In this document: positions 1,119-12,955 of the stretch, one piece after another
Layout: the number at the start of each line of letters is the position of its first letter
How positions within the stretch are numbered: position 1 is the first letter of the stretch
Assembly (NCBI GenBank): GCA_003598975.1
Contig: QZIJ01000020.1
Coordinates: 1-64,000, forward strand
Origin: Anaerolineaceae bacterium
GTDB taxonomy: Bacteria; Chloroflexota; Anaerolineae; Anaerolineales; Villigracilaceae
Direction of reading: 5' to 3'
DNA length: 64,000 bases
Notes under the pieces: generated by a model
Databases searched by the model: none
The model's input: only the letters and a program-made list of their open reading frames with translations
What the model was told of the DNA's origin: nothing
Made by a program: the position numbers and the translations under genes

Positions 1119-1147
1119 TTGACTTGAAGGGAAAAAGTCCCTATACT
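1119..1147 (+). promoter_or_regulatory. Promoter of the ubiquitin-like operon
   Basis: The -35 box TTGACT (1119-1124) and -10 box TATACT (1142-1147) are separated by exactly 17 bases, a near-consensus sigma-70 promoter. Transcription would start near 1153-1155, about 30 bases before the E1 start codon. Confidence 0.85.
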
Positions 1148-1156
1148 GGCATTGTC

Positions 1157-1167
1157 TGGTCTGACCA
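1157..1167. promoter_or_regulatory. FadR/GntR-like operator TGGTCTGACCA
   Basis: This is a perfect palindrome (TGGTC-T-GACCA) just downstream of the predicted transcription start. FadR-subfamily GntR regulators recognise TGGT-N3-ACCA sites. The first gene of the operon carries a GntR-type winged helix, so autoregulation is the natural inference. Confidence 0.65.
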
Positions 1168-1182
1168 CCATACCACAAGCCT

Positions 1183-2823
1183 ATGATAAAAATTCAGCCT
1201 GTATCCCACCGAACTTTGGCAGAGTCTGCTGCCGCCAAGCTGACCGCATCCCTTTTGGATGGCAGTTTGCAACCCGGCGTGCAATTGCCCCCGGAGCGTG
1301 AGCTGATGACCCAGTTGGGCATCAGTCGCGCTACCCTGCGCGAGGCACTTAAATCGCTGGAAAAGAATCACCTGATCGAGTCGCGGCCGGGTGTTGGTTG
1401 GTTCGCTCGCGCCATAGACGAGTTGAACATGACCCAGGCGAAGGAAATGGCTGGGGGCGCGGCGACACAAGCCTCCCGTCCCGCGACGAGCGAGCCGCCG
1501 ACCGGCCCATTGCGAGTCCCCATCGCGCCGGAGAAGCCGATCCACATTCCCAATCTTAAAAAGGATCGCCTCGGTACGTTCGAATTTATTTCGTGGTGGG
1601 AGCGTGAAAAAGTGGCACAGGCGAAAGTAATGGTGATCGGCGCGGGCGCGCTGGGCAACGAGGTGATCAAGAATTTGTCGTTGATGGGTGTCGGCAACCT
1701 GTTTATTGTGGATTTCGACAAGATCGAGGCCGCCAACCTGAGCCGCTCGGTGTTGTTCCGCGAAACAGATAATAATCGCAGCAAGGCCGAGGTGGCCGCG
1801 GCGCGCGCAAAGTCTGTCAACCCGCAGGTGCATGTGCAATATTTGAACGGCGACGTGACCACGCAACTCGGGCTGGGAATTTTTCGCCGCATGGACGCGG
1901 TAATCGGTTGTCTCGATAATCGCGAGGCGCGGCTGGCGGTGAATCGTTTTTGTTATTGGGTGAACAAACCTTGGGTGGACGGTGCAATTCAGGAACTGCT
2001 TGGGCTGGTGCGCGTGTTCACGCCAGGGCAGGGTGCCTGTTACGAATGCACTCTCACCGAACAGGCACTGCGCGATCTGTCCATGCGATATTCCTGCCCG
2101 TTGCTGGCTCGTCAGAATATTTTGCTCGGCAAGGTGCCGACCACTCCGACCATTGCCTCGATCATCGGCGCGATGCAATCGCAGGAGGCGCTCAAACTGA
2201 TTCATGGCCTGCCTGTCGGGGCGGGCAAGGTGACGCATTTCAACGGCATGGTCAACGAGATGCACACTACGGCCTACTCGCCGCGTGATGATTGCGAGAG
2301 TCACTGGACTTACGGCGAGATCACGGAATTGCCCGCCCGCGCTGAGCGCACGACTCTGGCCGATCTGCTTCGCATCGCCCGCGCGGACCTGGGACCGGAC
2401 GCGATCATCGAACTCGACCAGGAACTGATCGTTTCTCTCGAATGCCCGAATTGCCACACCTTCGAAGAGACCCTCAAACCCTTGAGCGAAGTCAGTTTCG
2501 AGGCGGGGCATTGTCCCACCTGTGGCGTCCTGCGTGAATCTACGTTGACTCATGCCGTCAGCGGCGATGAGAAATTTTTGCATCGCACGCTGGCAAGTGT
2601 GGGGGTGCCTGCCCTGCACATCCTGCGCGCTCACAACGGAATCCAATATCGCTTCTACGAATTGACCGGCGATCTGCCCGAAGCGTTGCATTTCCGCCAC
2701 TTCGATCGGACGGGCGACGGGAATGGTTCGCCTGCGCGTGGACGCGTCCGTTTGAAGGGCGAAATCAAGTTGAAGGACGCGCCAAAGAGTCCCGCGCGCG
2801 GACGCGTGAAATTGCGCGGTTGA
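1183..2823 (+). CDS. GntR winged helix fused to E1-like UBL-activating enzyme
   Basis: This 546-residue protein should adenylate the C-terminal Gly of the operon's UBL and pass it to E2. Residues 1-78 are a GntR/FadR-type winged helix (LPPERELMTQLGISRATLREAL). A linker leads to a ThiF/E1 Rossmann domain at about 130-370 with GAGALGNE (153-160), VDFD (176-179), NLSRSVLFR (185-193), K201 and CLDN (243-246). Cys286 and Cys289 form CYEC. Cys305 in RYSCP is my candidate for the catalytic cysteine. A zinc-ribbon-like segment follows (CPNC 421-424, CPTC 444-447). The tail contains SPARGRV twice. The ATG at 1183 fits the promoter. A DNA-binding domain on an E1 is unusual. Confidence 0.9.
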   Translation: MIKIQPVSHRTLAESAAAKLTASLLDGSLQPGVQLPPERELMTQLGISRATLREALKSLEKNHLIESRPGVGWFARAIDELNMTQAKEMAGGAATQASRPATSEPPTGPLRVPIAPEKPIHIPNLKKDRLGTFEFISWWEREKVAQAKVMVIGAGALGNEVIKNLSLMGVGNLFIVDFDKIEAANLSRSVLFRETDNNRSKAEVAAARAKSVNPQVHVQYLNGDVTTQLGLGIFRRMDAVIGCLDNREARLAVNRFCYWVNKPWVDGAIQELLGLVRVFTPGQGACYECTLTEQALRDLSMRYSCPLLARQNILLGKVPTTPTIASIIGAMQSQEALKLIHGLPVGAGKVTHFNGMVNEMHTTAYSPRDDCESHWTYGEITELPARAERTTLADLLRIARADLGPDAIIELDQELIVSLECPNCHTFEETLKPLSEVSFEAGHCPTCGVLRESTLTHAVSGDEKFLHRTLASVGVPALHILRAHNGIQYRFYELTGDLPEALHFRHFDRTGDGNGSPARGRVRLKGEIKLKDAPKSPARGRVKLRG

Positions 2824-2837
2824 ATCCGCGAGTTGCC

Positions 2838-3698
2838 ATGTTTTCCCAAACTGCCACGATGAGCCAAATCCGTTCCTCCCACACTGCAACGCGGTCCGTT
2901 TTCTTTTTCAAATTGCTGTCGCTGTTCCTGTTGGTGATGGCCTTCGCGTCCGGGTTGATCCAACTCTTCCGTACCAAGCCCGATTATCCACTCTGGCTTC
3001 AGAATTGGTTTGCAGTGACAACGCTGGCGGTGGTCGCGGGATTTGGTTCGCGCTGGGTTTTGAATCGGCGCAGTGGTTTTATTCGTTTCGTTGTTGCGAT
3101 GGCAACTTATCTGAGCGGATTGCTATTACTGGGGTTTCTTTCCGAGTGGAAATACGGGATCGGCCCCCTTGAATTTTGGCCGAAGCAGATGGATGTGGAA
3201 GGACTGGCACAGGTTGGCGTTGGTCTCGTTGTTTTTCTGCTGGTCTTTCGAGCCTGGAAACGGCGCTCCCCAGCGGTTACCCAGGTAGTTGCTTCACCAC
3301 GCTCGATTCCAACGCCTGCTCCGAAAGTGGAAAGAACTCCAGCACGAAAGCCGACTCCTGCACCATCCAAAGTCTCGAATCGAAAACCGGTCCTTGGCTT
3401 TTTGAGATCCGCGCAGAAACCTGCCAAAAAGGCCCAGGCGGGAGGCATCCGCTCAAAGAAAACAGTCAAGCCCGGGCGCGCTGCGACTCCTGTCAGCCAG
3501 AAAAAAAGCAGGGGGTGGCGCGGCAGGCCCAAGGTCCAATTGGCGATCGTGGAGGAGCATCGCTGTCCGTTTTGTCTCGAACCAGTCAGCAGAGTCGATC
3601 CGCGCGGCGTGGTCGAATGTGACGTCTGCCATACCCTGCACCATAAGGACTGCTGGGAAATCACCGGCGTCTGCCAGGTGCCGCATTACAACTCTTGA
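2838..3698 (+). CDS. Membrane-anchored RING-like protein, E3 candidate
   Basis: The protein has several hydrophobic segments (about residues 20-145, probably four membrane spans). A Pro/Lys/Ala-rich linker follows, and then a C-terminal zinc domain. Counting from a TTG at 2820, the possible ligands are C249, C252, C267, C270, H275, C278, C285 and H289. This gives C-x2-C-x14-C-x2-C-x4-H-x2-C-x6-C-x3-H, which resembles the prokaryotic RING family 1. RING proteins act as E3 ligases by holding charged E2 near a target. Position between E1 and E2 supports that role. The start is uncertain: TTG 2820 overlaps the E1 stop, while ATG 2838 and ATG 2859 are alternatives. Confidence 0.82.
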   Translation: MFSQTATMSQIRSSHTATRSVFFFKLLSLFLLVMAFASGLIQLFRTKPDYPLWLQNWFAVTTLAVVAGFGSRWVLNRRSGFIRFVVAMATYLSGLLLLGFLSEWKYGIGPLEFWPKQMDVEGLAQVGVGLVVFLLVFRAWKRRSPAVTQVVASPRSIPTPAPKVERTPARKPTPAPSKVSNRKPVLGFLRSAQKPAKKAQAGGIRSKKTVKPGRAATPVSQKKSRGWRGRPKVQLAIVEEHRCPFCLEPVSRVDPRGVVECDVCHTLHHKDCWEITGVCQVPHYNS

Positions 3699-3708
3699 TG
3701 GAGGTAGC

Positions 3709-4596
3709 ATGCCTGATTTGAATGTGACGATCGTTTTGCCGAGCGGCGGGGCGCGGACTGCAGAAGTGCCCGATGACGTTTCGGTGCGGGACTTGTTGGC
3801 GGAGTTCGCTTCGCTGTTGCAACTTCCAACGGTCGGCCCAGACGGACGCCCGATGTCGTATCGACTCGACAGCAAGGCTCTTGGCCGCGAACTGAAGGAA
3901 GATGAAACCCTATCCGCCGCGGGCATCCCTAACGATGACCGCCTGATGCTGACCGCAGACATTACCGCGGGCGCAGGGCCATCTGTCGTAGCCGATAGCC
4001 CGCGCATGCGCCGCATGAAAGCGGACTATGAGTTGATGCAGGAACTCGCGGCGCGCAGTGACCTGATCTCGTTCAAGGCGATCTCGCCGCGCCCAAGCGT
4101 TCCGCCCGAGCGGTACATCGTGACGTTCAAGTGCAAGAGCATTATTGATGTGGATCGACAAGGCAACCCGAAATATGGACATACGCATCAAGTAGAGATT
4201 TACCTGCACAACCAGTATCCGCAACGCTGGCCGGGTATGAAGTGGATGACGCCCATCTGGCATCCGAACATCAATCACCTGAACGGTAGTGTCTGCATCG
4301 ACGCGGCCTGGTGGACAGCCAGTCGTTCGCTCGACCGACTCGTCATCATGCTGGGCGAGATGCTCCAGTGGAAGAACTTCCACGACGACCCGACCAAGCC
4401 GCCTTTTCCCTGGGATCCCGAGGCGGCGCGCTGGAGCCGCGAGTATCGCAAGAAGAACCCAAATGTCTTTCCACTCGATCAGCGCGAATTGATGCGCCCC
4501 GAGCGTGTAAAGTTGAGCACGTCTGCTTCGAAGCCTGCCGAGAAACCGAAGATCAGTTTCTTTAACAAACCAAAAACGAAGATTAAGTTGAAATAG
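3709..4596 (+). CDS. UBL-E2 fusion conjugating enzyme
   Basis: This is a 295-residue protein preceded by GGAGG. Residues 1-88 are a ubiquitin-like domain, 66 of 88 positions identical to the free UBL encoded next. Residues about 100-265 are an E2/UBC fold with the hallmark HPN (185-187) and the catalytic Cys196 in GSVCID, as in eukaryotic E2s. The C-terminal 30 residues are Lys-rich and end KTKIKLK. E2 accepts activated UBL from E1 as a thioester and transfers it to lysine. The built-in UBL continues past its TAG motif (residues 86-88), so it is not a free donor. It may bind E1 or E3, or be released by the JAMM protease. Confidence 0.93.
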   Translation: MPDLNVTIVLPSGGARTAEVPDDVSVRDLLAEFASLLQLPTVGPDGRPMSYRLDSKALGRELKEDETLSAAGIPNDDRLMLTADITAGAGPSVVADSPRMRRMKADYELMQELAARSDLISFKAISPRPSVPPERYIVTFKCKSIIDVDRQGNPKYGHTHQVEIYLHNQYPQRWPGMKWMTPIWHPNINHLNGSVCIDAAWWTASRSLDRLVIMLGEMLQWKNFHDDPTKPPFPWDPEAARWSREYRKKNPNVFPLDQRELMRPERVKLSTSASKPAEKPKISFFNKPKTKIKLK

Positions 4597-4661
4597 ATAA
4601 TTCCCCGCGGTGCACCGGTTTAGAAAGATTGAATCCAACCCATGAACAAAAGGAGTAAACC

Positions 4662-4928
4662 ATGTCTGACATCCCTGTTACCATCGTGCTTCCCTCTGGA
4701 GGCAGTCGCACGGCAGAAGTGCCTGACGATGTGCCGGTGAAGGAACTCATCCCCGAACTGACCACTTCGCTGGAATTGCCAACCACGGGTCCCGATGGAC
4801 GCCCGATGTCCTACCGTTTGGACAGCAAGGCGCTTGGCCGCGAACTGAAGGAAGAAGAGACCCTCAGCCAGGCCGCCATCCCGCAGAATGATCGTCTAAT
4901 GATGACGGCTGATGTGACCGCCGGCTAA
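4662..4928 (+). CDS. Free ubiquitin-like protein with exposed C-terminal Gly
   Basis: The 88-residue protein is only a beta-grasp UBL domain and ends ADVTAG, so a terminal glycine is available without processing. It resembles YukD/EsaB-type UBLs (my inference). The ribosome site AAAGGAG seven bases before the ATG is the strongest in the operon, which suits the modifier that must be most abundant. It is 75 percent identical to the N-terminal domain of the preceding E2, which points to a tandem duplication. The natural reading is that this is the conjugated modifier. Confidence 0.9.
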   Translation: MSDIPVTIVLPSGGSRTAEVPDDVPVKELIPELTTSLELPTTGPDGRPMSYRLDSKALGRELKEEETLSQAAIPQNDRLMMTADVTAG

Positions 4929-4945
4929 CCATGAACTGTCCCATT

Positions 4946-4976
4946 CCTCACCCGGTCTGTTTTTGACCGGGTGAGG
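4946..4976 (+). terminator. Intra-operon hairpin after the UBL gene
   Basis: CCTCACCCGGTC (4946-4957) and GACCGGGTGAGG (4965-4976) form a perfect 12-bp stem with a TGTTTTT loop. No T-run follows, so it is probably an mRNA-stabilising or processing structure or a partial attenuator rather than a full terminator. It overlaps the GTG at 4971, which argues against that codon as the JAMM start. Confidence 0.7.
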
Positions 4977-4991
4977 AAATCGGGAGCATCC

Positions 4992-5654
4992 ATGCCAACC
5001 AACTTCAAATTGGAACTCGAGCCGCCTGAGACGATGGAACCGTTTACCACCCCTCTGCCTGCAAAAAAAGCGCGTCGCTGGGACTCTCCTTATGACGCTC
5101 TCGGTCTGGAGCCTATCGTTTCGGTTTTCATGACCCAGCCTGCCTACAGTCGAATCTGCGTTCACTCTGTCAGCGACATGGACAATGAGGTGGGCGGCAT
5201 CATGGTGGGTGAGTGGTGTGCGGACGAGAATAGCGGTCGACATTTCATCGTTGTCGAACATGCCATCCCCGCGCAACATACGCGGCAGAGTAGTGTGCAT
5301 CTCACATTCACGCAGGACAGCCTGGTGGAGATCCACAATGAGATCGACACCCACTTCAAAGGCAAGAAGATCGTTGGCTGGTATCACACGCATCCACGTA
5401 TGGGAATTTTTCTGTCACATTACGACACCTGGCTTCATCAGCATTTTTTTCCCGAACCCTGGCAGGTGGCACTCGTGGTGGAACCACATTCTGCCAGCGG
5501 CGGGATTTTTATCCGCCAGCAGAATGGTCTTTTCGACCCGTCTCGTTATTTCGGCTTCCACGAACTGGATGGTAATTACGGAAGAACGATGGTCTTTTGG
5601 AAAAATCTATCCCTCCATGAAGAAAGCGAGGAAGGAGTGAATCACAATGAGTAG
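4992..5654 (+). CDS. JAMM/MPN+ metalloprotease, deconjugase candidate
   Basis: This 220-residue protein carries a complete JAMM zinc site: Glu66 (NEVGGIMVGE), His132 and His134 (YHTHP), Ser142 and Asp145, matching H-x-H-x7-S-x2-D. Enzymes of this class (Rpn11, AMSH, CBASS Cap3) cut isopeptide or UBL-tail bonds. Because the free UBL already ends in Gly, the main job is likely removal of UBL from targets, or release of the UBL from the E2 fusion. The start at ATG 4992 is chosen because GGGAG lies just upstream and the GTG at 4971 is inside a hairpin. The 3' end overlaps the FHA gene by 8 bases. Confidence 0.92.
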   Translation: MPTNFKLELEPPETMEPFTTPLPAKKARRWDSPYDALGLEPIVSVFMTQPAYSRICVHSVSDMDNEVGGIMVGEWCADENSGRHFIVVEHAIPAQHTRQSSVHLTFTQDSLVEIHNEIDTHFKGKKIVGWYHTHPRMGIFLSHYDTWLHQHFFPEPWQVALVVEPHSASGGIFIRQQNGLFDPSRYFGFHELDGNYGRTMVFWKNLSLHEESEEGVNHNE

Positions 5655-6504
5655 ACGAATGCGCACGTACTTTTATGCAGTCCTCGGCGCCATAGGTGGA
5701 CTCTTCGGCTGGCAGGTCAGTGACCGCCTTGGCCTTTCCTTTGCATCCAACCTGTATCTTAGCGAGGCCATCGTCGGCGCGTTGGTTGGTCTTTGCATTG
5801 GTCTCTTTATCGGAATCACCGAAGGCTTGCTCACGCGCAATCTGGTGCAGGCCGCGAGATCGGGATTGTTCAGCGGGATGCTTGGTCTCATCGCAGGCGC
5901 CATCGGGCTTCCGCTTGGTGAGTTTCTCTTCCAATTTGTGGGCGCGGGAATCCCTGGACGTGCGCTCGGTTGGGGTGTATTCGGCCTGCTGATCGGCCTG
6001 GCTGAAGGCGTGGTCGGCAAGAGTCAAATGTGGAAGGGCATGCTCGGCGGGTTGATTGGCGGCGCGCTGGGTGGCGCATTGCTTGAATATGTTCACACCC
6101 TGCTCAAAGATCCGCTGGTGGGCAAGGCCACTGGCCTCGTCCTGTTGGGAGCATCGGTTGGTGCGTTCATCTCGCTCATCGTTGTCCTGCTCTCGCGCGC
6201 CTGGCTCGAGGTCACCTCGGGCAAACTCAAAGGCGCGGAATTCATCCTCGACAAGTTTATGCGCGCGGGCGGTCCCGCCATCGCCATCGGCAGTTCGGCC
6301 CTCAAATCTGAGATCGTCTTTCCCGATCCCGACATCTCGCCGCAACATGCCATGCTCACGGGCGACGGAAAATCCTTCACTCTCAAAGACATGAGCATGT
6401 CTGGGACATTCATCAACGGGAAGAAGATCGAACGAACCCAACTTTCCAACGGACAGAAAATCCGCATGGGCAACACCGAGATGGTGTACCACGAGAAGAG
6501 GTAA
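5647..6504 (+). CDS. Polytopic membrane protein with C-terminal FHA domain
   Basis: This is a 285-residue protein. Residues 1-190 are a run of Gly-rich hydrophobic helices (about six spans, several glycine-zipper-like). Residues about 210-285 form an FHA domain with IGSS, DISPQHAML and MSGTFING, the usual phospho-threonine-binding loops. The FHA would face the cytoplasm and recruit phosphorylated partners. It overlaps the JAMM gene by 8 bases and is 2 bases from the VWA gene, so it belongs to the same operon. No Ser/Thr kinase is present in the window. Confidence 0.85.
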   Translation: MSRRMRTYFYAVLGAIGGLFGWQVSDRLGLSFASNLYLSEAIVGALVGLCIGLFIGITEGLLTRNLVQAARSGLFSGMLGLIAGAIGLPLGEFLFQFVGAGIPGRALGWGVFGLLIGLAEGVVGKSQMWKGMLGGLIGGALGGALLEYVHTLLKDPLVGKATGLVLLGASVGAFISLIVVLLSRAWLEVTSGKLKGAEFILDKFMRAGGPAIAIGSSALKSEIVFPDPDISPQHAMLTGDGKSFTLKDMSMSGTFINGKKIERTQLSNGQKIRMGNTEMVYHEKR

Positions 6505-6506
6505 CC

Positions 6507-7586
6507 ATGAACAAGACTCTCCGCCTCATTTTGACTTTCGGTCTGCTTCTGTCTCTGACGCTTTTGCCCCTTGCAAACGTTTGCGCGCAGGGTGAGCCAA
6601 CCGTCACTATTACACAGGTGGACACCTCCAAATTCCCCCAAGTCACTGTTTACATTTCTGTCACCGACGCGGCGGGTGAACCTGTCAACATATCGGCTTC
6701 CAGTTTGCAGGTCTATGAGAACGGCGTGTTGATGACGCCCACGGAAATTACCAACCAGGGCGAGATCGGCCCGCTAACGACACTCCTGGTGATTGATATT
6801 TCTGGAAGTATGTTCAATTCCAAAAAGATCGTCGGCGCGCAGAACGCCGCCAAAGCCTACGTGGAGCAGATGCGTCCCCAGGATCAGGCCGGGGTGATCA
6901 GTTTCAATACCGAAGTCAAAGTTGTTCAATCCGTGACAAGTGACCGCGCCGCGTTGATCGCGGCCATCGACTCGCTTGTGCCCGACCTCGACACGGCCAT
7001 GTTCGACGCTTTGTCGCAGGGCGTGAACACACTTGCTCCCATCGAAGGACGCAAGACCATCGTCCTCCTCAGTGATGGTCTTGATAACGTCAGCCAGAGC
7101 GGATTGGAGAATGTGATCAGCGCCATCGGCCCTGCAGGGTTGTCCATTTCAGCGATTGGCCTCGGCGATCCGAATCTGATGGGAACCAACAGCGGCCTCG
7201 ATGAACCTGCCTTGCAGGAACTTACAGATCGTGCGGGAGGCGTTTACCGCTTTGCCAGCGGACCCGACGCGCTGGTGGCTCTTTACGAGCAACTCGGACG
7301 AGCTCTTCAAGGTGAGTTCAGTTTCACCTACATTTCCCCATCCACGTTGCGGGATGGGGTGAACCGCGGCTTGACGGTCTCCATCAGCGACTCCTCGGTC
7401 AACAGCCAGTACAATCCAGGTGGCGTACTTCCTGAGGTTTCCAATAGTTCCCTGCCTCTCTTTGGCGGAATTCTCGCTGGCTTACTTCTCCTGCTTGGAT
7501 TGCCCTTTCTGTTCAGGCGCGGCAAAGGCGGTGACAAAGCAAAGGCGAAGAGTTCCTCTGCCAAGGGAAGAGTCAAACTCAAATAG
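6507..7586 (+). CDS. Secreted, membrane-anchored VWA-domain protein
   Basis: The 359-residue protein begins with a signal peptide (about 1-28). A beta domain follows, then a von Willebrand A domain with a MIDAS motif D97-I-S99-G-S101 and a later SDG segment. A single membrane helix lies near residues 313-335, and a short basic cytoplasmic tail ends AKGRVKLK. The VWA part should sit outside the cell and bind a ligand through a divalent metal. The tail matches the C-terminus of the operon's E1 (ARGRVKLRG), which suggests contact with the conjugation enzymes. It is the last gene before a terminator. Confidence 0.87.
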   Translation: MNKTLRLILTFGLLLSLTLLPLANVCAQGEPTVTITQVDTSKFPQVTVYISVTDAAGEPVNISASSLQVYENGVLMTPTEITNQGEIGPLTTLLVIDISGSMFNSKKIVGAQNAAKAYVEQMRPQDQAGVISFNTEVKVVQSVTSDRAALIAAIDSLVPDLDTAMFDALSQGVNTLAPIEGRKTIVLLSDGLDNVSQSGLENVISAIGPAGLSISAIGLGDPNLMGTNSGLDEPALQELTDRAGGVYRFASGPDALVALYEQLGRALQGEFSFTYISPSTLRDGVNRGLTVSISDSSVNSQYNPGGVLPEVSNSSLPLFGGILAGLLLLLGLPFLFRRGKGGDKAKAKSSSAKGRVKLK

Positions 7587-7594
7587 TGTGAATC

Positions 7595-7629
7595 AAAAAC
7601 TCCGAATTCAACTTGAACTCGGAGTTTTT
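7595..7629. terminator. Bidirectional terminator, UBL operon and lexA
   Basis: AAAAACTCCGA (7595-7605) pairs with TCGGAGTTTTT (7619-7629), leaving T-runs on both strands. It lies between the convergent VWA gene and lexA. Confidence 0.85.
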
Positions 7630-7643
7630 TCATTTGGCGAATA

Positions 7644-8345
7644 TTACAGTTTCATCGTATCCATCTTGCGGATAACCATGACCACCTTGCCTTTGATTTC
7701 CAACTGGCGGTTTTTCGCGATGTGAATGGGTTTCATGGACGGGTTGGCGGGTCTGAGAGTGTAACCATCCTTTTCCTTATAGAAATACTTCAGGGTGGCC
7801 TCGTTCTTATCGGGGAGCCAGACGGCCACCATTTCGCCGTTTCGCGCTTCCACTGCGGGTTTCATGACTACGATATCGCCATCGTTGATCATGGCATCTA
7901 TCATGGAATCTCCCTTGACTTCGAGGGCATACAGGTCGTTGCCTTTTTCCTTGGCAGGCAGGAGGCTGCGAGCAATATCCACTGCATGAGCCTCGTTTTC
8001 GGTAATGTAAGCAACGCCAGGCTGGAGGTCGGGGAGCGGGAGACCAGCTGCGATCTGACCCACGATGGGGATGTGCAACAGGTCGCCGACCACCTGCACC
8101 ACTTCCTTGATTTTTTCAGTCAGTCGCAAGCCGCGCGAGACGCGGTCGTCGCGGATGATAAAGCCGCGTCGCTCCAACTGGTCGAGATCGTAGTTGACTA
8201 CCGAGGTGGAGGAGATGCCCACTTTTGCACATATTTCGCGGATGGAGGGGGGACGGTCGTATTCTTCCTGGTATTTTGCCAGGAACTCCAGGATACGGAT
8301 GTGCTTTGGGCTTAGATCTTCGCTGCGTTTGCGTACCATCATCAT
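7644..8345 (-). CDS. lexA: LexA SOS repressor
   Basis: The protein represses DNA-damage genes and cleaves itself when RecA is activated. The N-terminal winged helix (SPKHIRILEFLAKYQEEYDRPPSIREI) is followed by a peptidase S24 domain. An Ala-Gly cleavage site lies in QIAAGLPLPD, the nucleophile Ser in GDSMID, and the general-base Lys in MKPAVEARNGE. The start at ATG 8345 (protein begins MMMVRKRSED, 233 residues) is chosen because GGAGG lies five bases upstream. A longer frame extends further but would cross the promoter. The SOS box at 8394-8405 indicates autoregulation. Confidence 0.95.
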   Translation of the reverse strand: MMMVRKRSEDLSPKHIRILEFLAKYQEEYDRPPSIREICAKVGISSTSVVNYDLDQLERRGFIIRDDRVSRGLRLTEKIKEVVQVVGDLLHIPIVGQIAAGLPLPDLQPGVAYITENEAHAVDIARSLLPAKEKGNDLYALEVKGDSMIDAMINDGDIVVMKPAVEARNGEMVAVWLPDKNEATLKYFYKEKDGYTLRPANPSMKPIHIAKNRQLEIKGKVVMVIRKMDTMKL

Positions 8346-8384
8346 AGCAACCTCCTGGGCCATAACTAGCCCATTTGTTCTTGA

Positions 8385-8413
8385 TTTATACTCGAACAGG
8401 CGTTCTGTGTCAA
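8385..8413 (-). promoter_or_regulatory. lexA promoter with SOS box between -35 and -10
   Basis: Read on the minus strand, TTGACA (8413-8408) and TATAAA (8390-8385) are 17 bases apart. The spacer contains GAACGCCTGTTC (8394-8405), the GAAC-N4-GTTC LexA box known from Gram-positive and related bacteria. Confidence 0.92.
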
Positions 8414-8430
8414 GCGTTTGACGTAACAAA

Positions 8431-8456
8431 AAACGGACGGCAAATGCCGTCCGTTT
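8431..8456 (-). terminator. Terminator downstream of corA
   Basis: ACGGACGGCA and TGCCGTCCGT form a tight hairpin with a 2-base loop. On the minus strand it is followed by a T-run, just after the corA stop. Confidence 0.85.
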
Positions 8457-8461
8457 AGGGT

Positions 8462-9457
8462 TCAAACCCAGGTGCGTTTCCGCATCCATTGATACATCAG
8501 AATGGGAGTGACGATCATTGCCAGTATGACCGCGTAGAAGACGGGCCTTTGCATCAGTTCCCAGATGGCGTCATCGGGACGGGGCAGGAAAAAATTCATG
8601 CCAAATACGCCTGCAATGAAAGAAAGCGGCATGAAGAGGGTGGTGATGATCGCCAGCGTTTTCATCGCTTCGTTCATGCGGTTGTTGATGACCGAGAGAT
8701 ACGTGTCCAGCGCGCCGCCCACGAGGTCGCGCATGGTTTCGTTCAGGTCATGCAGGCGGACGAGGTGATCGTAGATGTCGCGAAAGAAGATGCGGTCTTT
8801 TTGGTCAATTACGGCGTAATCATCACGGGCCAGTTTGTTGAGCACTTCGCGCTGGGGGAGCAGGATGCGCCGCATCGCCAGCAGGACGCGTTTGAGGGCA
8901 AAGAGCCGCTCCAGGGTCCGCGGGGTGGGGCGGTCGAAGACCTGGTCTTCGATCTCGTCAATCTCCTCGTCAATCCGCTCCACGATGGGCATGTAATTGG
9001 TCACCACGTTGTCCATGATCTTGTAGAGCAGGTGGTCGGCACCATCGTGGAGGACGCGCTGGTCGCGTTGGATGGAGGTCAGCACTGTGTCAATGGCAGG
9101 GACGGGCAGGTCGTGATGGGTGACCACATAATTCGGGCCGAGGAAAATGTCCAGTTCGTCAATTTCGGTTTCCCAGTGGTCTTTTTCGCGGCCATTCAGG
9201 TGCATGTAATTCAAGACGAGGTAGATGTAATTGCCCCAATCGTCAATTTTTGGGCTGTGTGTTTCCTGCAAGGCATCATCTATTGCCAGGGGATGAAAGC
9301 CGAAAGACTCGAAGATTGGCTGGCAGGTTTCGGGCGGCTCGCCGACAAAATCCACCCAGAGCACGCCGCGTCGGGAGCGGAGCGCCTTTTGGAGAGAAGC
9401 CGGCTCGAGGTCGGTTTGAAGCGGCTTGCCAGTCTGGTAGTAAATGGAACGGATCAC
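8462..9457 (-). CDS. corA: CorA-type divalent cation transporter
   Basis: This 331-residue protein has the CorA layout: a large cytoplasmic N-terminal domain with long helices, and two C-terminal membrane helices. The signature GMN is present (VFGMNFF) after the first helix. The family moves Mg2+ or Co2+ through a pentameric channel. It is a single gene divergent from the DUF2089 cluster and closed by a hairpin terminator. The exact ion cannot be read from the sequence. Confidence 0.93.
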   Translation of the reverse strand: MIRSIYYQTGKPLQTDLEPASLQKALRSRRGVLWVDFVGEPPETCQPIFESFGFHPLAIDDALQETHSPKIDDWGNYIYLVLNYMHLNGREKDHWETEIDELDIFLGPNYVVTHHDLPVPAIDTVLTSIQRDQRVLHDGADHLLYKIMDNVVTNYMPIVERIDEEIDEIEDQVFDRPTPRTLERLFALKRVLLAMRRILLPQREVLNKLARDDYAVIDQKDRIFFRDIYDHLVRLHDLNETMRDLVGGALDTYLSVINNRMNEAMKTLAIITTLFMPLSFIAGVFGMNFFLPRPDDAIWELMQRPVFYAVILAMIVTPILMYQWMRKRTWV

Positions 9458-9505
9458 AAATCCTCCAAAGAGTGAAAAGAATTATCCAGATTATCTCTCT
9501 AGACC

Positions 9506-9533
9506 TTGACAAATTTAAATAAAATACTATAAT
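9506..9533 (+). promoter_or_regulatory. Consensus promoter of the DUF2089/DUF4097 cluster
   Basis: TTGACA (9506-9511) and TATAAT (9528-9533) are both perfect consensus boxes with a 16-base spacer, 50 bases before the first gene. Confidence 0.92.
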
Positions 9534-9583
9534 GCCTTCAGATTTCAAAAACAAAGTTCAGGAATATTGAATTCGGAGGTAAT

Positions 9584-9967
9584 ATGCACCCAGCACTCAC
9601 TCGCTGTCCCGTCTGCCGCAATGAACTGACCGTCACGCGCCTGCACTGTTCCTCGTGCGAAACCGTGGTGGAAGGCCGTTTCACGGCTGGGCATTTTGCC
9701 AATCTCACATCCGAACAACTCGATTTTATCCTCACTTTCGTGCGTGTGGAGGGGCGACTTAACCGCATGGAAACCGAACTTGGCCTTTCCTATCCCACCA
9801 TCCGCAACCGCCTGCACGAAATCATCCGCGCCCTCGGGTACGAGCCCGGCAAGGACGAAGCGCCCGATGTGACCGACGAAAAGCGGCGCGCGGTGCTCGA
9901 GGAATTGGACGCAGGCAAAATCAGCGCCGACGATGCCATGCGTTTTCTGCGCGGAGAGGAGAGTTAG
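9584..9967 (+). CDS. DUF2089-family zinc-ribbon/HTH protein
   Basis: This 127-residue protein starts after GGAGG. Cys8, Cys11, Cys22 and Cys25 form a zinc ribbon. A helix-turn-helix follows at about 45-85 (SEQLDFILTFVRVEGRLNRME..LSYPTIRNRL). The tail at about 100-125 is a short SHOCT-like helix pair (RRAVLEELDAGKISADDAMRFL). The family is thought to be regulatory, and its place at the head of the cluster suggests it controls the genes below. Function is inferred from family and context only. Confidence 0.85.
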   Translation: MHPALTRCPVCRNELTVTRLHCSSCETVVEGRFTAGHFANLTSEQLDFILTFVRVEGRLNRMETELGLSYPTIRNRLHEIIRALGYEPGKDEAPDVTDEKRRAVLEELDAGKISADDAMRFLRGEES

Positions 9968-9969
9968 CC

Positions 9970-11070
9970 ATGTTGAAAAAGACGCTGGCGGTTCGCTCGC
10001 ATTTCAAGATCGTCCTGCCCTCGGCGGCGGGGGATCTGCGCCTGATTGGCTGGGAGCGGGAGGAGGTCTCCGCGAAGACAGACGGCGACTCTCTCGATCT
10101 TGTGCTGGACGGGGAAACGGTCACGGTTTCCTGCGACGATGACCTCATCCTGAATGTCCCGCATGCCGCGTCGGTGCAGGTGAACGTCGCCCACGGCGAC
10201 GTGGAAGTCCGCACGCTTGCGGGCGCGCTTTCCTTCGGGTCTGTGGCGGGCGATCTTTCGCTTCGCGAAATAGGCGCGTTGCAAGTGGATACCGTGGAAG
10301 GCGACGTGTCTGTACGTTCCTGCGCCGGCGATGTGAGTATTATGCGCGCAGAGTGTGACGTATCATTGCGTGATGTCCAGGGCAGTGTAAACCTGGATGC
10401 GGTTGCCGATGATCTGTTCGTGCGCGGCGTGAAGGGAAGCCTGCACGCCCGCGTGGAGGAGGATGCCGTGATGTACCTCGAGCCTCTTGAAGGCAATTCC
10501 ATTGATGTGTTTGCGGAGGGAGACATCCTCCTGCATGTCCCTGCCAAAGCGAATGCCAACCTTTCCCTCGAGGCCGACGAGCCAGAGAATATCACTGTCC
10601 AGGTCCCCGCGTCGACGAGTACGGGGGACAATCCACTCTCGGTGATGCTGGGCACTGGAGACGGGGCCGCGATCCACTTGAAGGCCGAAGGCGATATTCT
10701 GGTGACCAGTGAATCGAAGGAATGGGAGTCGGCGATGGAATTCGATTTTGGTGCGGGTTGGCCCCTGCCTGAGGATTTTTCGGAGCGCATCAACCACCGC
10801 GTGCAGGAGGCTACAAGCCGCGCCCAGCGACACGCGGAGGCCGCCACGCGCCGCGCAGAAGCCAACATGCGCCGCGTTGAGGAGAATATCCGCCGCCAGC
10901 ATGGACGACGTTTCTCCTTCAATTGGTCGGGTGGACGCGCCCCGTTTGCGCCGCCGGTGGAACCCGTCTCGGACGCAGAACGCATGGCAATTCTGAAAAT
11001 GTTGCATGATAAAAAGATCACTGCTGAAGACGCGGAGAAACTACTCTCTGCGCTGGAAGGAGGCAAATAA
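9970..11070 (+). CDS. DUF4097-like beta-repeat protein with SHOCT-like tail
   Basis: The 366 residues begin with repeated short beta strands (GDVEVRTLAGALSFGSVAGDLSLREI) typical of DUF4097/bactofilin-like beta-solenoid proteins. A basic, Ala/Arg-rich helical stretch follows (about 275-315). A C-terminal SHOCT-like module ends the protein (RMAILKMLHDKKITAEDAEKLLSALEG). There is no signal peptide, so it is probably cytoplasmic or peripheral. It starts 2 bases after the previous gene and its stop overlaps the next start. DUF4097 proteins often accompany envelope-stress genes, so a structural or signalling role is plausible but unproven. Confidence 0.8.
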   Translation: MLKKTLAVRSHFKIVLPSAAGDLRLIGWEREEVSAKTDGDSLDLVLDGETVTVSCDDDLILNVPHAASVQVNVAHGDVEVRTLAGALSFGSVAGDLSLREIGALQVDTVEGDVSVRSCAGDVSIMRAECDVSLRDVQGSVNLDAVADDLFVRGVKGSLHARVEEDAVMYLEPLEGNSIDVFAEGDILLHVPAKANANLSLEADEPENITVQVPASTSTGDNPLSVMLGTGDGAAIHLKAEGDILVTSESKEWESAMEFDFGAGWPLPEDFSERINHRVQEATSRAQRHAEAATRRAEANMRRVEENIRRQHGRRFSFNWSGGRAPFAPPVEPVSDAERMAILKMLHDKKITAEDAEKLLSALEGGK

Positions 11071-11714
11071 TGTCTTCTGAGGAACAACGCCGCATTTTGA
11101 AGATGGTGGAGGATGGCAAGATCTCTGCCGATGAGGCGATGACTCTCATCCGCGCGCTTGAACAGGATTCGCCCGAGGCGGAGGTGGAGATTTATGAGGC
11201 CGCGCCCGGCGAAGGGCGTCGCGCTGAGCGTGCTGAAGCGTCCGAAACGACCGATGCGCCCGAGTTCGAGGAAGTCAAGGCGCGCGCCCGCCGCTTTGCG
11301 TCCATTCCCCTGTGGATCGGCGTCGGCATTACGGTGCTGTTTGCGGGCCTGATGTATTGGGCCATGCAGACTTCGGGGTTTGGGTTCTGGTTCTATTGCC
11401 TGACGTTCCCGTTCCTGTTCGGCGTTCTGTTGATCGCGCTTTCCTCGGGCGGGCTGTCTTCGCGCTGGCTGTTTGTGGATGTGCATCAAAAGCCGGGTGA
11501 AAAGCCCGGCCGCATCACGCTGGGCTTTCCCGTCCCGCTCGGATTGGTGGGTTGGGCTTTCAGGAATTTTGGCCATCACATTCACGGTATGGACCGCGAG
11601 AAGGCTGACCAGATCGCGGAGATGATCCAAGCGACAGCCTCTTCGAAATCGCCGTTGATCGTGAACGCGCAGGATGATGAAGATGGTGAGCGCGTGATGG
11701 TTTACATTGGATGA
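11070..11714 (+). CDS. SHOCT-like membrane protein
   Basis: The 214-residue protein opens with the SHOCT-like module (EEQRRILKMVEDGKISADEAMTLIRAL). Two membrane helices lie at about 80-130. A cytoplasmic domain ends in QDDEDGERVMVYIG. That last domain resembles the C-terminus of the next gene (MDDEDGEHVEIYVE). The two proteins therefore share both ends, and this one has a membrane hairpin inserted between them. Its start overlaps the previous stop by one base, so translation is coupled. Precise function is unknown. Confidence 0.8.
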   Translation: MSSEEQRRILKMVEDGKISADEAMTLIRALEQDSPEAEVEIYEAAPGEGRRAERAEASETTDAPEFEEVKARARRFASIPLWIGVGITVLFAGLMYWAMQTSGFGFWFYCLTFPFLFGVLLIALSSGGLSSRWLFVDVHQKPGEKPGRITLGFPVPLGLVGWAFRNFGHHIHGMDREKADQIAEMIQATASSKSPLIVNAQDDEDGERVMVYIG

Positions 11715-11722
11715 GGTGACAC

Positions 11723-12106
11723 ATGACAACCACAGAAGAACGTCTCAAGATTTTGAAGATGATCGAGGATGGCAAGATCAGTGCCGAGGAGGGCGCCAAA
11801 CTACTGGCGGCGTTGAGTGAGGGACGCCGCGGGCCGGGCATGCCCGTGCCGCCGCGCCCGCCCGGGGGTCCGCGCTGGTTGCGGGTTCGCGTCACAGATG
11901 TTCATTCGGGACGCTCGAAGGCCTCTGTCCAAATTCCGCTCGATTTGGTGGACGCGGGTATGAAGATCGGCGCGCACTTCGCCCCCGAGGTGAATGGTGT
12001 GGATATGAACAACGTCATGCAAGCCATCCGCACTGGCATGACAGGCAAGATCATTGACGTGATGGATGATGAGGATGGCGAGCACGTGGAAATTTACGTG
12101 GAGTAA
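11723..12106 (+). CDS. Small SHOCT-like protein
   Basis: The 127 residues contain an N-terminal SHOCT-like module (EERLKILKMIEDGKISAEEGAKLLAAL), a Gly/Pro-rich linker and a C-terminal domain shared with the preceding membrane protein. It has no membrane helix and looks like the soluble partner of the preceding gene. It lies 8 bases from its upstream neighbour. The function is unknown. Proteins with this N-terminal module (YvlB/LiaX-like) are linked to envelope stress in Firmicutes. Confidence 0.78.
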   Translation: MTTTEERLKILKMIEDGKISAEEGAKLLAALSEGRRGPGMPVPPRPPGGPRWLRVRVTDVHSGRSKASVQIPLDLVDAGMKIGAHFAPEVNGVDMNNVMQAIRTGMTGKIIDVMDDEDGEHVEIYVE

Positions 12107-12112
12107 GCCGCC

Positions 12113-12955
12113 ATGCCCAACGATATTCTGGAAAAAACCTTTTCGGTTTCAGGTTCGCCGCGCCTGGCGCTGGGAAATATTCGCGGCTCGGTGGATATCC
12201 GCCCCGGGACGGATGGCGTCATTACGGTGAAGGCGGAAAAATTCGTCAACACTGGTGATGCGAAAGCGACCGAGATCGAGGTGACACAGGAGCCCGATGG
12301 CACGGTCAATGTCAAGACCCGTTTTTGGGAATTCTGGCTTGGCTGGCTCTTTGGCTCGAAGCCCTGCAAGGTGAACTACACCGTCACGGTTCCGCGTAAC
12401 TGTGCGCTCGAAGTCAACGGTGTGAGCAACGAGCTGTTTGTCGAGGGCTTCGAAGCCGACGGTACATTCAAGACTGTCAGCGGCGAGATGACCGTGCGCG
12501 CCTCGAATGGCTCACTCAATTTTGAATCTGTGAGTGGGGATATGAAGTTGTCTGACTTGACGGGCGATTTGCGCCTGAACACTGTCAGCGGCGACGTCAA
12601 AGGTACGCATCTTTCTGGGACCTTGAGCCTGAAGACTGTTTCTGGCGAGGTGGATTTTGACCAGTCCACTCTTCAGTCTGTAAGAGCCACCACCGTCAGC
12701 GGCGGGATGGAACTCGAAACCGACCTCGGTGACGGCCCCTACAAATTTGATTCAGTCTCTGGCGGCCTCACTATGAAGTTGCCCGCGGATGTGCATTGCA
12801 CGGCTGAATTGCAAACCGTAAGCGGAGACCTTTCCATCAATCTTCCCGCCACTTCTGTTTCGCGTCATGGCGGCCGGCAGGTGACCGAGGTTCAGGGCGG
12901 CGGCGTGAAGGTGATGCTGAAAAGCATCTCTGGCAATATGGAAATCACTTCGTAA
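12113..12955 (+). CDS. DUF4097-family beta-solenoid protein
   Basis: The 280-residue protein contains at least eight copies of a TVSGD/SVSGD-type turn (for example KTVSGEM, ESVSGDM, NTVSGDV, QTVSGDL), the mark of DUF4097 putative adhesin-like repeats forming a right-handed solenoid. It lacks both a signal peptide and the SHOCT-like module of the other cluster members. It is the last gene of the cluster, 6 bases after its neighbour, and is followed by a strong terminator. Confidence 0.85.
   Translation: MPNDILEKTFSVSGSPRLALGNIRGSVDIRPGTDGVITVKAEKFVNTGDAKATEIEVTQEPDGTVNVKTRFWEFWLGWLFGSKPCKVNYTVTVPRNCALEVNGVSNELFVEGFEADGTFKTVSGEMTVRASNGSLNFESVSGDMKLSDLTGDLRLNTVSGDVKGTHLSGTLSLKTVSGEVDFDQSTLQSVRATTVSGGMELETDLGDGPYKFDSVSGGLTMKLPADVHCTAELQTVSGDLSINLPATSVSRHGGRQVTEVQGGGVKVMLKSISGNMEITS

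Follow-up and report, generated by a model that had tools for sequence, protein, structure and literature searches.

What would a bacterium do with a complete set of ubiquitin-type enzymes encoded beside membrane proteins, and how would it control their supply? This question is raised by one end of a 64,000-nucleotide stretch of DNA from an Anaerolineaceae bacterium (assembly GCA_003598975.1, contig QZIJ01000020.1, positions 1 to 64,000; hereafter the window), part of a 3.9-Mb draft genome of the Anaerolineae (Chloroflexota). At 1119-7586 the window holds seven plus-strand genes encoding, in this order, an activating enzyme (E1) that fuses a GntR domain to a ThiF domain, a membrane RING protein, a conjugating enzyme (E2) fused to a ubiquitin-like protein (UBL), a free UBL, a JAMM enzyme, a membrane FHA protein and a membrane VWA protein. 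Within 1183-7586 the genes are separated by short gaps or overlap. Judged by sequence, a ubiquitin-type E1-E2-RING-UBL-JAMM pathway, with catalysis inferred, is by far the best reading of this operon, and we consider it likely that it forms a self-regulated, membrane-linked ubiquitin-like modification system of Anaerolineae. The features on which the argument draws are as follows.

1119..1147, plus strand: sigma-70-type promoter TTGACT-17-TATACT, with 10 of 12 consensus bases
1157..1167, no strand assigned: FadR/GntR-type operator core, the perfect palindrome TGGTCTGACCA, ten bases past the -10 box
1170..1175, no strand assigned: outer half-site of the operator, ATACCA, kept 2 bases after the core in 56/63 relatives
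1183..2823, plus strand: E1, a GntR-ThiF fusion (Pfam profiles, alignment, structure model)
about 1216-1404, plus strand: GntR winged helix-turn-helix (wHTH) of E1 (GntR PF00392, 3e-19)
about 1588-2295, plus strand: ThiF adenylation domain of E1, with the invariant C305 (ThiF, 1e-54)
about 2704-2820, plus strand: basic tail of E1 with repeated GRVRLK/GRVKLR motifs (sequence)
2820..3698, plus strand: membrane RING-like protein, whose start may be ATG 2838 (Prok-RING_1 PF14446, 9e-6)
3709..4596, plus strand: UBL-E2 (UQ_con, 5e-11; YukD, 2.5e-9)
about 3709-3972, plus strand: N-terminal YukD-type UBL domain of E2 (YukD profile)
about 3994-4494, plus strand: UBC domain of E2 with HPN185-187 and C196 (UQ_con profile, model)
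4662..4928, plus strand: free YukD-type UBL, ending DVTAG (YukD, 2e-11)
4992..5654, plus strand: JAMM/JAB isopeptidase, start ATG 4992 (JAB, 6e-11)
5647..6504, plus strand: multi-pass membrane protein with a C-terminal FHA-fold domain (FHA, 1e-14)
6507..7586, plus strand: VWA protein (VWA, 2e-14)

Profile searches were made with Pfam, and the relatives table draws on named public genomes and comprises the 80 best-matching loci. The initial annotation had described the seven genes as a complete conjugation operon and proposed a comparison across genomes; each gene has Pfam support, the identical gene order recurs in 69 of the 80 loci, and the other 11 are cut short by a contig end, so that operon content is kept. 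Going by record titles, all 80 loci belong to Chloroflexota, mostly to Anaerolineae, and cultured carriers include Leptolinea tardivitalis YMTK-2, Leptolinea sp. HRD-7 and Pelolinea submarina MO-CFX1. Alignments of the operon proteins across the best loci show invariant active-site and metal residues, and no homologous operon lacking the Cys, Gly or JAMM residues was found among the relatives examined. Conserved domains, active sites and gene order thus support the ubiquitin-type pathway that had been proposed.

In E1, 17 key residues are kept in 72/72 relatives and the modelled fold is of the ThiF type, which bears out the earlier claim of an intact nucleotide site. The model matches structures of UBA5, ThiF and UBA3 (E values of 1e-17 to 1e-19), the nearest solved structures by sequence are UBA7 and UBA1, and the protein also carries zinc-binding Cys pairs. 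In E2, residues H185, P186, N187 and C196, as highlighted in the initial annotation, are kept in 80/80 loci. That the E2-like domain might adopt another fold had been named as a possible refutation; the model instead shows a UBC fold matching UBE2K and UBE2D (E value about 1e-6), with eukaryotic UBC enzymes as the best matches and UBE2K as the solved structure nearest by sequence. The most likely start of E2 is ATG 3709, preceded by GGAGGTAGC; this start and ATG 4992 of the JAMM gene agree with the residue numbers first given (C196; E66, H132, H134, S142 and D145). The free UBL is a single domain of 88 residues with an exposed C-terminal Gly and no pro-peptide, and is acidic (15 acidic, 8 basic residues). 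Its G88, the predicted terminal Gly, is kept in 75/75 proteins, a count that excludes six UBL calls of the 80-locus table that are E2 proteins caught via their UBL domain.

The RING protein has 3-4 transmembrane helices, a strongly basic linker and a C-terminal RING-like finger; the topologies of the RING, FHA and VWA proteins were read from hydropathy. Eight possible zinc ligands had been noted in it earlier; nine Cys and His positions prove invariant in 79/79 relatives (C249, C252, C267, C270, H274, H275, C278, C285 and H289). All five JAMM residues listed above are present in 76/76 relatives, in line with the complete site claimed for this enzyme, and the nearest solved JAMM structure is Caldiarchaeum Rpn11 (6fjv). 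No proteasome was found in 121 relatives. The VWA protein combines a signal peptide, a large acidic extracytoplasmic domain, one transmembrane helix and a basic cytosolic tail ending AKGRVKLK, and its metal site is intact in 67/67 relatives. In the FHA domain, S216 replaces the phosphothreonine-binding Arg in 73/73 relatives and the Ser of the SxxH motif is Ala in 52/73. These substitutions rule out canonical FHA phospho-signalling, and a phospho-switch should therefore not be assumed.

The GntR domain of E1 points to the control of the operon. By domain match its wHTH is of the PdhR/FadR type, and the Arg residues R39, R49 and R53 are conserved in at least 70/72 relatives. The usual C-terminal ligand domain of GntR proteins (FCD, FadR_C or UTRA) is absent; the ThiF domain stands in its place. 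Position 1119, where the initial annotation placed the start of the system, is the -35 box of the promoter, and a TTGAC-N15-20-TANNNT pattern lies upstream of the operator in 41/63 relatives. The palindrome TGGTCTGACCA itself we take to be of the FadR/PdhR operator type. At least 7 of 8 operator consensus bases occur upstream of 66/71 GntR-E1 genes, including that of a divergent locus (L084) whose class is uncertain because its genome has 8% contamination, and the operator is absent upstream of all 8 tested E1 genes that lack a GntR domain. Exact TGGTN3ACCA sites are present in 57/72 E1 upstream regions, a count that takes in two GntR-less E1 genes, versus 89/3550 (2.5%) random 300-mers from the same loci. 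A variant operon in another genome (L240, G736), the E1 of which also lacks the GntR domain, carries a transposase-like gene pair at 6069-7212, between the UBL gene and a long open reading frame that follows the RING genes.

The extended operator, that is, core plus outer half-site, was found in 24/121 relatives, and 21 of these 24 are among the 29 E2-bearing genomes (Fisher p 4e-14). As for the other three, one has a GntR-E1 gene at a contig end (G070), one has the site beside an ordinary GntR gene (G066), and the third is G003, a same-genus genome with an extended site (L186, G003:C143:3602) and no E1 nearby. We sought a wider regulon with the core and the extended operator; no carrier has a second extended site elsewhere. 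Two further core sites in the window's genome, C61:7591 and C81:14221, were set aside as chance occurrences because they lack the outer half-site. Since the extended site lies at the E1 promoter in the carriers checked, autoregulation rather than a regulon is indicated, and E1 is probably its own repressor, predicted to bind TGGTCTGACCA.

E1, E2, the VWA protein and, in other orders, a second JAMM protein have a further feature in common, a motif at the C-terminus that is short and basic, [KR]-[IV]-x-[LI]-K. In terminal position (for example KPRIRLK) it is found in 76/80 E2 proteins, that of the window ending KTKIKLK, and in 50/67 VWA proteins; E1 has at least one copy, which falls within the last 30 residues in 56/78. 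Among flanking-gene controls, the terminal motif occurs in 3/577 and the last-30 form in 11/577. The models show the tails of E1 and E2 as disordered. Several further VWA proteins have the motif ahead of an extra [LM]PWD[DE] tail; this ending is seen in L232-L237, where a second JAMM gene is present and an eighth gene (transmembrane helix plus PD40 beta-propeller) is often next. The second JAMM bears the motif as PRVRIKL and the first JAMM does not carry it; in L232 the second JAMM also has an N-terminal FHA-like domain. That a newly added JAMM has acquired the motif is the best argument for a recruitment tag, and from sequence comparison we regard the shared tail as probably a docking tag. 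A search of the window's genome with the pattern [RS][VI]K[LF]K-stop found no tail-bearing clients elsewhere; its matches were the VWA gene, one string outside any open gene and one without a stop codon.

Taken as a mechanism, E1 would adenylate the C-terminal Gly of the YukD-type UBL and then load it onto a Cys, probably C305, from which it would pass to C196 of E2. On the inner side of the membrane, the RING protein anchored there would present targets; removal of the tag would fall to the JAMM enzyme. On the simplest reading, the basic, beta-strand-like tails of E1, of E2 and of the VWA protein at its cytosolic end, present as well on the additional JAMM in other orders, would act as a common docking peptide and gather these proteins on one partner, for which the acidic UBL and the FHA domain are candidates, while the VWA domain, facing outside, may sense an envelope or extracellular ligand. 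The control step has good support from sequence: the wHTH of E1 would bind TGGTCTGACCA at the transcription start and repress the operon; with the wHTH at the operon's own operator, the enzyme that uses the UBL would thereby set the supply of the whole pathway. The adenylation domain would serve as the ligand-sensing domain of E1. Because it replaces the GntR ligand domain, UBL, ATP or thioester load is the natural candidate for the signal to the repressor, which is the most speculative part of the proposal. Our fuller model is tentative and falls somewhat short of probable: E1 might be a ligand-sensing transcription factor of its own pathway, in which charging with UBL (or ATP) shifts the DNA affinity of the GntR domain and gives direct feedback on modifier supply, while the shared C-terminal docking peptide holds the pathway proteins at the membrane.

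Several observations weigh against this interpretation. All readings derive from sequence, and the chemistry is deduced. Confidence in the E1 model is low at residues 297-321, around C305, so picking out the catalytic residue from the invariant cysteines is a guess. The RING-like finger scores 26 bits against Prok-RING_1, just below the Pfam cut-off of 29.1 (the RING of the sister operon L081 reaches 37.8 bits), and its putative ligase role is read from context. A string similar to the tail motif lies inside the fold of the FHA core. The total of the promoter scan is no higher than in shuffles, and 5/71 GntR-E1 upstream regions have no clear operator. The spread is patchy: E2 matches were found in 29/121 close relatives, in 2/8 genomes of the same genus, in 50/396 genomes of the class and in 19/400 of the phylum, several of these 19 being weak YukD-domain matches only.

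Such patchiness is also what one might expect if the operon were an anti-phage defence of the Bil, Bub or CBASS type, with structural proteins of phages as the tagged targets. Those bacterial E1-E2-JAB systems known to us from experimental work were found or proposed as immune operons (PMC10097602; PMC13373217), and PADLOC gives weak matches of E1 to Cap2-type E1-E2 proteins and of the JAMM protein to JAB models. We nevertheless judge a defence role improbable. Housekeeping genes make up the recurrent neighbours (upstream rplK/A/J/L and nusG, downstream lexA and corA), among which no defence family was recognised. With a median of 78%, E2 identity is on a par with that of ribosomal protein L1 (79%) and correlates with it (rho 0.51 across 22 loci with rplA, the pairs not being independent) instead of showing arms-race speed. 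No copy of the operon was found in phage and viral collections, and plasmid collections gave a single match, a distant E2 carried by a cyanobacterial plasmid. Neither Bil nor CBASS, moreover, features a VWA receptor that faces outwards or control by GntR. As far as sequence comparison can tell, the pattern is that of a constrained function, inherited mostly in the vertical line and lost in places, and not that of a mobile or fast-changing defence module; we prefer a role in membrane signalling or envelope quality control to one in phage defence. Further along the window, at 9584-12955, adjacent genes encode near-identical 30-residue helical motifs of the ILKMVEDGKISADEAMTLI type and, by eye, DUF4097-like proteins; homologues of these genes follow the operon in 13-14 relatives.

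Other parts of the proposal have rivals of their own. The basic tails could be lysine-rich acceptor sites for self-modification, as an archaeal E2 modifies itself at a C-terminal lysine in vitro (PMC5654768), or plain membrane-binding patches, which would suit their charge and the membrane location of the RING and VWA proteins. This is unlikely, though it has the best claim of the rivals: two hydrophobic positions are retained in the tails, 6/80 E2 proteins have Arg in place of the terminal Lys, the basic residue in the middle is frequently Arg or His, and the first JAMM, FHA and RING proteins, which belong to the same membrane system, have no such tail. Another GntR regulator could instead bind the palindrome that precedes E1, with the wHTH of E1 left as a relic or serving merely for dimer contact; operators of the FadR family resemble one another from regulator to regulator, and the two additional core sites in the window's genome could be used by other proteins. 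We give this only a slim chance, given that the operator tracks the presence of the wHTH on E1 and is absent where the wHTH is absent, that the recognition residues are conserved to the extent described, and that the extended pattern misses both additional sites. Least credible by far is a UBL that is not conjugated at all and, in the manner of type VII secretion, plays a structural part in a membrane complex that bears an FHA domain. Bacillus subtilis YukD has indeed been reported as not conjugated (PMC1779556), but the UBL here has an invariant exposed Gly and always accompanies E1, an HPN/Cys E2, RING and JAMM, and profiles detect no WXG100 protein or EssC-type ATPase among the seven genes.

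If the self-regulated, membrane-linked modification system is real, its interest is twofold. To our knowledge, most bacterial ubiquitin-like systems examined experimentally serve in defence, have unusual E2s and lack a RING; in this operon a eukaryote-like HPN...Cys E2 occurs together with a RING-like partner protein, a JAMM enzyme and a UBL. Because its E2 is conserved like a ribosomal protein and the operon is present in cultured strains, a non-defence, three-enzyme bacterial ubiquitin-like pathway would be directly testable. We also know of no prior description of a ubiquitin-activating enzyme that doubles as a DNA-binding repressor with a conserved operator, and an E1 acting in this way would, as far as we know, represent an undescribed control principle.

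The gene set as a whole, which the initial annotation had considered possibly new, is in its core of a kind already described. Burroughs, Iyer and Aravind reportedly predicted, in 2011, prokaryotic operons with an E1, an E2, a JAB protein, a membrane Prok-RING_1 protein and a YukD-type UBL. The present operon is alike in its ThiF-type E1, UBC-fold E2, JAB enzyme, RING with transmembrane helices and YukD-type UBL; it adds the GntR-E1 with its own operator, the UBL-E2 fusion, constant FHA and VWA partners and shared C-terminal tails. Of these additions, the GntR-E1 and operator, the constant FHA/VWA partners and the shared tails appear to be unreported. A sister variant in the same class (family f20; L081, L082 and L241-L246) combines, in one operon, an E1 50-56% identical, a Gly-ending UBL, a separate E2 (40-48%), JAMM and RING. 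It differs in having no GntR domain, no operator and no detected FHA or VWA genes, in having two JAMM proteins and a UBL unfused to E2, and in an E2 tail of the DDLGINIL type without the basic motif of the window's operon. In L081 the RING and CAP-domain proteins have strings such as IRITASDI/LRLTTADI and NGRV in common. Plasmid pCRI9333.03 of Crinalium epipsammum (L088) encodes a ThiF E1, two small UBL-like proteins, an E2 29% identical and a JAB protein, with GntR, FHA, VWA and RING not annotated nearby. Within 6992-11124 of this locus the E2 ends KPKLNWR, the JAB neighbour has MPKLQWRD and QLNWRQ, and a later open reading frame has LTWRDA and LNWRDA, so that here, in parallel, a linear motif is shared across an operon.

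Among better-characterized systems, Bil (BilABCD) also has E1, E2, UBL and JAMM in a single operon, but BilA has two UBL domains, BilB a CEHH motif and BilD two adenylation domains, and no RING is listed (PMC11354881). Identity with Bil fails on the single 88-residue UBL domain, the HPN...C E2 in 80/80, the one ThiF domain and the presence of RING. CBASS Cap2/Cap3 shares the E1/E2 chemistry via a single C-terminal Gly and the reversal by a JAB enzyme; its Cap2 is an E1-E2 fusion that conjugates the CD-NTase (PMC10097602). Here E1 and E2 are separate and no CD-NTase is among the seven genes, so that identity with CBASS fails as well. Bacterial E2 and E3 homologues and some complete operons had already been reported by 2017 (PMC5654768). 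The operon of Caldiarchaeum subterraneum, for which no FHA, VWA or GntR has been reported, encodes a ubiquitin homologue with a pro-peptide, in contrast to the YukD-type UBL without one in the window; it follows the same E1-E2-small RING-UBL-Rpn11 logic, and CsRpn11 is the nearest relative of the JAMM enzyme among solved structures (PMC5654768, PMC6043591).

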